From positions 10,642 to 74,641 of the forward strand of contig NZ_AXVL01000016.1 in NCBI RefSeq assembly GCF_000482505.1: a stretch of DNA of 64,000 nt, in the 5' to 3' direction. Under the pieces are notes generated by a model. That model did no database searches. It had not been told where the DNA came from and was given only the letters and a program-made list of their open reading frames with translations. Below, piece after piece: positions 54,523 to 55,883 of this stretch. Every line of letters begins with the position of its first letter. Position 1 is the first letter of the stretch. The translations under genes were made by a program, and so were the position numbers. Origin of the DNA: Leptotrichia trevisanii DSM 22070. GTDB lineage: Bacteria > Fusobacteriota > Fusobacteriia > Fusobacteriales > Leptotrichiaceae.

Positions 54523-54642
54523 TTATTTAGAAAAATCCGTTATCAGTATTTCCACTTCAATTTTATCTTCAAGCTCAGCATCCATAATGTATCCCCATAA
54601 CATATTTGTTTGATCTGCTTCAAATTTTTCATTCAATATCAT
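54523..54642 (-). CDS. 39-aa open frame coupled to the toxin remnant
   Basis: It starts at ATG 54642, whose first bases overlap the TGA of the toxin remnant (ATGA), with AGGAGATCAACT as ribosome site. The product is acidic, ending EVEILITDFSK, with no recognised family. It may be a remnant joined by deletion to the broken toxin gene. Confidence 0.35.
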   Translation of the reverse strand: MILNEKFEADQTNMLWGYIMDAELEDKIEVEILITDFSK

Positions 54643-54728
54643 AGTTGATCTCCTGAATAATTTAAAACTCTACCTTCAAAAAGTTTCAAATAATTTATAT
54701 AGCTTTCATCTACTTCATATAACCTCAT
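54639..54728 (-). pseudogene. Truncated ToxN/AbiQ-like toxin (29 aa)
   Basis: MRLYEVDESYINYLKLFEGR and VLNYSGDQL resemble the N-terminus recalled for type III toxins (ToxN begins KFYTISSKYIEYLKEFDDKV). Only 29 of about 170 expected residues remain. It has a strong GAGGGGGA site and directly follows the ToxI-like RNA and its terminator, the classical type III order. The toxin is surely inactive. Confidence 0.55.
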
Positions 54729-54741
54729 AAATTCCCCCTCG

Positions 54742-54828
54742 AAAAAAAGCCACCATAATTGGTAGCTTTGCATTTAAAGTTGCTTCATTTTAAGGTAGTG
54801 GAACACCTGTTTTTAAATTTTTTCTTTC
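54742..54828 (-). ncRNA. ToxI-like antitoxin RNA remnant with terminator
   Basis: On the minus strand, AGGTG-ttcca-CTACCTT is followed by AAAATGAAGC and then a partial second unit AACTTTAAATGCAAAGC. The Pectobacterium ToxI repeat, from memory, begins AGGTGATTTGCTACCTT and continues TAAGTGCAGC, so the match is close. Then AAGCTACC pairs with GGTGGCTT (54747-54768), followed by T7, the terminator that limits toxin expression. ToxI arrays usually have several repeats; about 1.5 remain. Confidence 0.6.
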
Positions 54829-54905: not shown

Positions 54906-55883
54906 TTAATCACAAAAATCTGTTGCAATCAAATATACTTTTACACAGCTTCCTTTTTGCTCAAAATCTTCAAAATTTTCAAATTTAGATTCTTCAAAGA
55001 CTGTTCCCCATGCGAGAAATAAGTCTGGATTTTCTGAACTTTTGGCTACTGCTGTGGCGATTTGACTGATTTCTTCGAGGCGTATGTCTTTTCCTGAGGT
55101 TATGTTCATTAGTATTTTTCCAGCGCCTTTTATTGAGCGTTCCAGAAGCGGTGTATTCAGTGCCTGTTCTACTGCCTTTTTTGCTCTGTCCTCTCCATCT
55201 GCTTTTCCAAATCCTAACACTGTCTTGCCTGAATTTCGCAATATAGATTTAATATCTGCAAAGTCCAAATTTACAATTCCCTGTTTTTTTATTAAATCCA
55301 ATATCCCTTTTACAATTGTTACAAAGGATTTTTCCCCTTTTTCATAAATATTTGCTATTGGAATGTCTGTATATAAATCATTTAATTTTTGATATGGAAT
55401 GACTATTACTGTATCGGCGAAATGTTTTAATTTTTTCTTTCCTTTTTTAGCAAGTCTTATTTTATTGGAGGCTTCAAATTTAAAAGGTTTTGATACAATT
55501 GCAACTGTTAATATATCCATTGATTTTGCAATTTCTGCGATAATAGATGAGGCGAATGTGCCGGTTCTTTCACCCATTTCAGCCATAATAAATGCCATGT
55601 CTGCCTTTTCCAGCTCTTTTTTGACTTGCATCTTTAACCCTTCTACGGCTTCATAAGAAATTATTGAAGATACAAATATTTTTGTATCAGCTTTTGAATT
55701 GTCTAAATTGCTTCTTTCAGTATCTACAGCTATAAAATCAGCTCTTATATCCTGTCTTGCCACCATTTTATTTATTACATTGTTCCCTGTTTTCCCTATC
55801 CCTATAATTTTTATCTTTACTCCATTTAATGTTTTTTTACCAATATTCCTTTTTTCTTCAACATCTTCGGCAATGTCCCACAT
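54906..55883 (-). CDS. FtsZ-like GTPase with an altered nucleotide loop
   Basis: 325 aa. The FtsZ fold is clear: IKIIGIGKTGNNVINKMV near 23-40, FIAVDTERSNL near 50, SSIIAEIAKSMDILTVAIVSKPFKFE near 112-137, and the T7 loop NLDFADIKSIL near 205-215. The tubulin signature GGGTGTG is replaced by GERTGTF (104-110), so GTP binding may be changed. The C-terminal linker and FtsA/ZipA-binding peptide are missing. No ftsA or other division gene is nearby. It may be a second, specialised FtsZ, or the sole divergent one. The N-terminal 20 residues precede the core. Confidence 0.8.
   Translation of the reverse strand: MWDIAEDVEEKRNIGKKTLNGVKIKIIGIGKTGNNVINKMVARQDIRADFIAVDTERSNLDNSKADTKIFVSSIISYEAVEGLKMQVKKELEKADMAFIMAEMGERTGTFASSIIAEIAKSMDILTVAIVSKPFKFEASNKIRLAKKGKKKLKHFADTVIVIPYQKLNDLYTDIPIANIYEKGEKSFVTIVKGILDLIKKQGIVNLDFADIKSILRNSGKTVLGFGKADGEDRAKKAVEQALNTPLLERSIKGAGKILMNITSGKDIRLEEISQIATAVAKSSENPDLFLAWGTVFEESKFENFEDFEQKGSCVKVYLIATDFCD

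Follow-up and report, generated by a model that had tools for sequence, protein, structure and literature searches.

The locus of paralog A

We analysed a 64,000-nucleotide stretch of Leptotrichia trevisanii DSM 22070 DNA, the whole of which is referred to as the window. A gene on its minus strand encodes an FtsZ-fold protein, here called A, beside remnants of a second FtsZ paralog, D, and of a toxin gene. The following features were mapped:

54523..54642, (-): remnant of D, the last 39 aa of the FtsZ C-terminal domain (MILNEKFEADQTNMLWGYIMDAELEDKIEVEILITDFSK); 18.8 bits to PF12327, matching intact D genes beside A in relatives
54639..54728, (-): ToxN/AbiQ-like type III toxin remnant of 29 aa, the first codons of the gene; a deletion joins it to the D remnant
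54783..54821, (-): single copy, with a 35/39 match, of a 39-base tandem repeat (ToxI-like) that precedes toxN in a relative (L033)
54906..55883, (-): paralog A, a 325-aa FtsZ-fold protein with no C-terminal tail, from the open reading frame, Pfam, a residue map and the fold match to S. aureus (SaFtsZ) and B. subtilis (BsFtsZ) FtsZ
55248..55277, (-): T7 synergy loop of A, aa 203-212, IVNLDFADIK, with one V204L as the sole change in 10 genomes
55551..55580, (-): T4 loop region of A, aa 102-111, EMGERTGTFA, from the open reading frame and the residue map

The stretch 54523-54821 (-) can be described as the wreck of a ToxIN-like type III toxin-antitoxin system, fused by deletion to the D remnant.

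The reading frame of A is intact, and its ATG start follows a Shine-Dalgarno sequence, GGGAGGA, rated good. Pfam assigns both the Tubulin/FtsZ GTPase domain (PF00091, 91 bits against a cut-off of 33) and FtsZ_C (PF12327, 72 bits against a cut-off of 27), which places A in the FtsZ superfamily. Its score for TIGR00065 ftsZ is 223.9 bits, below the equivalog cut-off of 295.2, compared with 384.9 bits for the canonical FtsZ of the same genome. The protein ends in ...LIATDFCD at the end of the GTPase-activating domain (GAD), with neither a linker nor a C-terminal peptide for SepF, FtsA or ZipA. A previous sequence-only reading had described an FtsZ-like protein, located outside a division cluster, in which GERTGTF replaces GGGTGTG and the C-terminal tail is absent. 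The reading frame, Pfam and the residue map bear out the description, and the surroundings agree with it: msrAB lies on one side of A, and GNAT, rfaE2-like, tsaE, tsaB and ftsY genes lie on the other. An Rfam scan gave no match near the locus.

Foldseek searches with a model of A returned S. aureus, B. subtilis and M. tuberculosis FtsZ as best matches (E ~1e-21, TM ~0.65-0.72), at 33-38% identity in most fold alignments. The AlphaFold model was built from a five-row alignment, has a mean pLDDT of 64 and is good for the nucleotide half only; pLDDT values in the NBD are mostly 75-93, and the GAD half is poorly predicted because only five sequences could be aligned. Canonical FtsZ was sought in viral contigs to deepen this alignment, and none was found there.

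Nucleotide and T7 faces of A

Residues of A were mapped onto SaFtsZ numbering. The T4 loop reads EMGERTGTF compared with GMGGGTGTG in the canonical FtsZ of the same genome, corresponding to G107E, G108R and G112F within the GGGTGTG motif, and G104E is changed in addition. In other genomes, the T4 loop of A contains GEKTGTL, GEKTGTP or similar (G108R/K, G112F/L). The T4 changes pointed out by the sequence-only reading are therefore real, but the damage extends beyond T4 to differences that it missed, comprising deletion of the T3 loop (SaFtsZ 70-75), N44D, D46E, loss of Q48, N166Y and D187E. Its suggestion that the protein may bind nucleotide weakly is probably too generous, since T2, T3, T4, T6 and the H7 base contact are changed and not T4 alone. 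Of the features by which a functional cell-division FtsZ is recognized, A lacks GGGTGTG in T4, an intact T3 loop and N166. The T1 loop reads GIGKTGNN, and G20, G23, N25, T45, T109 and G110 are kept.

The T7 loop, NLDFADIKSI, was rightly reported as retained: NLDFAD is found in 10/10 genomes, including N208, D210 and D213 of the N-x-D-x-x-D pattern; in the numbering of A itself, the two aspartates are D207 and D210. In S. aureus FtsZ, assembly is stopped by D46A, R143Q, N208L, D210N and D213N. D210 and D213 reach across to the next subunit, whose GTP is attacked by the water that they position, T7 being the in-trans catalytic loop (PMC8936486). We defined 75 positions that are nearly invariant among 33 canonical FtsZ sequences; A keeps 20/21 of them in the H7-T7-GAD half versus 30/54 in the nucleotide half (Fisher p=0.0008, with columns treated as independent). 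Given the losses on the nucleotide side and the unchanged T7 loop, A has lost one interface face and kept the other.

Selection on the gene follows the same two halves. By the Nei-Gojobori method, dN/dS of A falls from ~0.25 in the nucleotide half to ~0.08 across T7 and the GAD, compared with ~0.04 in both halves of canonical FtsZ; the values for D, B and E, paralogs described below, are 0.44, 0.13 and 0.18. These values show that A is no pseudogene and that its constraint lies on the T7/GAD side. Ten intact orthologs, conserved changes and purifying selection rule out a sequencing error, a pseudogene or a chance reading frame.

The nucleotide half of A occurs in two types with ~74% DNA identity, whereas identities reach 88-97% for the second half and 91-98% for msrAB in the flank. 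In the pair L034 and L036, the flanks are ~97-98% identical, yet the N-terminal half of A (the first ~165 codons) and the upstream region are divergent, the half being 67-75% identical. The contrast between the two types and their similar flanks indicates that the N-terminal half and the upstream region were exchanged between lineages onto a common T7/GAD half; as a side reading, localized recombination or balancing selection might account for the pattern in this pair. The NBD of A is ~99% identical between genomes G010 and G011, yet their ftsZ genes are 77% identical, and G010 appears to have received A horizontally.

FtsZ paralogs in Leptotrichia

The L. trevisanii assembly (2.85 Mb, 99.98% complete) contains a canonical ftsZ (L001) of 372 aa that adjoins an ftsQ-like gene and ends in the tail NFVLPPFFEE after a linker of ~60 aa. 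A SepF gene is also present, and the proteins with PF00091 besides canonical FtsZ are A and a further paralog, B (L002). Each of the 33 family genomes surveyed has a canonical ftsZ; A is found in 10/13 Leptotrichia and nowhere else, and B in 13/13 Leptotrichia and one neighbouring genus. A weak PF00091 match in G003 was discarded as a false positive, the gene reading as a VirB11-like ATPase. Because a tailed canonical copy is present in 13/13 Leptotrichia, an A-type protein as the only FtsZ of the genus is ruled out, as is A as the sole FtsZ of its own genome; with the tailed gene in the same genome, A is a paralog and not the main FtsZ, as the sequence-only reading had proposed in calling it specialized. 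A is thus a paralog that is conserved and tail-less, whose GTP site looks destroyed and whose T7 loop is intact, and it is present alongside a normal FtsZ. Among titles and the beginnings of abstracts in the literature naming Leptotrichia and FtsZ, no protein like A appears.

That A belongs to a series of several degenerate FtsZ copies in the genome, and that its sister D has been deleted beside it, escaped that reading. In eight relatives, D lies near A and encodes a protein of 282-284 aa that PF00091 misses at its gathering cut-off. T3 is gone, T4 reads SEKKNNE and N166 is replaced by L; the T7 loop reads NLDFDDVK or NLDFDDIK, with a single D210V in L041. D keeps 6/6 invariants of the T7 region but 12/21 over the whole H7-T7-GAD half. 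Five relatives (L033, L034, L036, L037 and L039) carry an intact ToxN/AbiQ-type toxin gene between A and D. A is present without an intact D in L. trevisanii and in G010.

A, B, D and E are all tail-less, and loss of the GTP site varies among them. B (L002:1066-1983, on contig C1 of the L. trevisanii genome) has 305 aa, reads GGATGSG, keeps N166 and looks like a working GTPase. It usually adjoins a divergently oriented gene for a DUF5362-like membrane protein. E, of 235 aa, is more degenerate still and resembles FtsZ mainly in the C-terminal half; its loci are L069:5751-6458 (C6:13750-14454 in L. trevisanii), L040:9621-10328, L064-L068 and L070-L072. The gene is part of a mobile-looking cassette that also encodes a WYL regulator, a nuclease-like protein of 379 aa and, as a further member, a PDDEXK-like or an Mrr-like protein. 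This cassette occupies differing genomic sites, is 92-96% identical between most species and also occurs in a second genus.

Other Fusobacteriota genera (g13, g19, g23 and g24; L073-L080) carry second FtsZ copies that are tail-less or otherwise unusual and largely keep the GTP motifs. The second FtsZ of L080 is extremely divergent. In one Fusobacteriota genome (G085), canonical-type ftsZ genes form a tandem pair (L081:1866-4321).

An FtsZ phylogeny, one of the checks proposed by the sequence-only reading, groups A with D and apart from the tail-less copies of other genera. A and D share a clade (support 100/98) that also takes in diverged D-like genes from G005 and G012, and A branches inside the canonical FtsZ clade of Leptotrichiaceae with support 83, a branch point that is not firm. 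A phage or plasmid origin of A was rejected: tblastn matches in phage and plasmid records are ~32-40% identical, those listed are annotated as ordinary FtsZ or unannotated, and the viral contigs scanned held no relatives.

Possible role of A and known systems

Our preferred explanation, held tentatively and at somewhat under an even chance, is that A is an FtsZ-derived, Leptotrichia-specific pseudo-GTPase that uses its T7 face to dock onto FtsZ in the GTP-bound state and so modulates FtsZ. A probably serves as an inbuilt regulator of the real FtsZ and not as an independent division protein, and we infer that the role of capping or regulating a main FtsZ, raised by the sequence-only reading, fits the kept T7/GAD face. 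A would bind no GTP and accept no subunit on its top face, and its bottom face, formed by T7 and the GTPase-activating domain, would sit on the GTP-bound top face of normal FtsZ. There it could supply the T7 aspartates in trans, resulting in faster GTP hydrolysis. Alternatively, it could act by sequestering or capping, blocking the top of free FtsZ or the top end of the filament and so making filaments shorter or more dynamic. Being tail-less, A would reach the ring only via FtsZ and not via SepF or FtsA. In mutants, top-interface defects are less toxic than bottom-interface defects, and filaments are tentatively held to grow at their bottom end (PMC8936486). This mutant logic, with subunits dead at the top being far less toxic than those dead at the bottom, predicts for A a mild, tuning effect and no action as a poison.

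Several points count against this explanation. Three Leptotrichia genomes have no A, so that A is dispensable in some species. In E. coli mutant work (Redick et al. 2005, J Bacteriol), a subunit with one good face reportedly binds weakly, and the T7 loop of A could be conserved for folding instead of docking. A pure FtsZ cap leaves the two divergent allelic N-terminal types unexplained. Among titles and the beginnings of abstracts in the literature naming Leptotrichia and FtsZ, no protein like A appears.

These allelic types are among the observations that would place A in conflict between host and phage or mobile elements, where the FtsZ-derived A, D and E would block or protect division during infection, either as arrest effectors or as decoys for phage FtsZ inhibitors. 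The swap of the N-terminal half between flanks that are 97-98% identical, the G010/G011 pair with its near-identical NBD and dissimilar ftsZ, the ToxN/AbiQ gene adjoining D in five genomes, and the E cassette with its WYL and nuclease-like genes, 92-96% identical across species at varying sites and in a second genus, all point this way. We nevertheless consider it unlikely: in most of the genus A is found at a stable chromosomal location, PADLOC gives no defence family for A or E, the viral contigs scanned hold no relative of A or D, and a decoy would be expected to conserve its surface, not to vary it. A version that joins conflict to docking, in which A, D and E form a pseudo-GTPase family whose T7 face seizes GTP-loaded FtsZ and so arrests or shields division on infection, draws on the exchangeable N-terminal half of A, the type III toxin-antitoxin locus with D and the mobile WYL/nuclease cassette of E; we regard it as quite improbable. 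A and D might instead assemble with each other, with or without B, into a heterodimer or heteropolymer that serves as a separate cytoskeletal element and does not act on canonical FtsZ. Their sister clades (100/98), their proximity in eight genomes and the T7 loop kept in both would suit such an element, which is improbable in our view because A persists without an intact D in its own genome and in G010, and because neither protein has a usable top face, which would leave both interfaces of an A-D stack free of nucleotide.

The state of the nucleotide site can be read in two further ways. A might be a decaying paralog without present function, as loss of the site, absence of A from three genomes and deletion of the neighbouring D in L. 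trevisanii would suggest; the intact reading frame in ten genomes, dN/dS of 0.08 in the GAD half, the invariant T7 loop and the good Shine-Dalgarno sequence speak against decay, and the selection result makes it very unlikely. Binding of GTP or another nucleotide in an altered pocket, making A a slow or alternative FtsZ, has similarly little chance of being right. The kept residues G20, G23, N25, T45, T109 and G110 and the confidently predicted NBD would allow it, but glycines of the phosphate loop have given way to acidic or basic side chains, the T3 loop is missing and the base contacts N166 and D187 are changed.

FtsZ can work only because every subunit contributes its T7 loop to complete the active site of its neighbour. 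With one face preserved and the other destroyed, a natural subunit offers a ready probe of FtsZ polarity, capping and in-trans GTP hydrolysis, and, if the docking explanation is true, division regulators can arise by one-sided decay of FtsZ. The graded stages represented by B, A, D and E in one genus make such a decay path testable.

Compared with canonical bacterial FtsZ (TIGR00065; S. aureus and B. subtilis structures), A is alike in fold, T7 loop and GTPase-activating domain, and differs by its dead-looking nucleotide face, the T3 deletion, the missing linker and C-terminal peptide, and the sub-equivalog score. The tail-less second FtsZ of other Fusobacteriota genera shares the absence of a C-terminal tail, but retains GGGTGS as well as the T3 loop and stands apart from A in the tree. 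MciZ, the FtsZ-capping peptide of B. subtilis, is not an FtsZ homolog; the outcome proposed for A would be alike, namely shorter, capped filaments. MciZ binds the bottom interface of FtsZ (PMC8936486), whereas A would bind the top face. PMC2875224 mentions FtsZ paralogs of archaea and bacteria that reportedly have no functional motifs and whose role is obscure; they resemble A in the absence of the usual motifs. Leptotrichia and Fusobacteria are unmentioned in that paper, and A arises near the canonical FtsZ of Leptotrichiaceae. In plants, FtsZ1 has no C-terminal peptide and tunes FtsZ2 (PMC8142252), and the title of a reference therein states that ARC3 raises FtsZ2 GTPase. FtsZ1 and ARC3 are eukaryotic, FtsZ1 keeps GTP binding and hydrolysis, and no membership is implied; as proposed here, A would be like these chloroplast proteins in being an FtsZ-derived partner that acts on a tailed main FtsZ.
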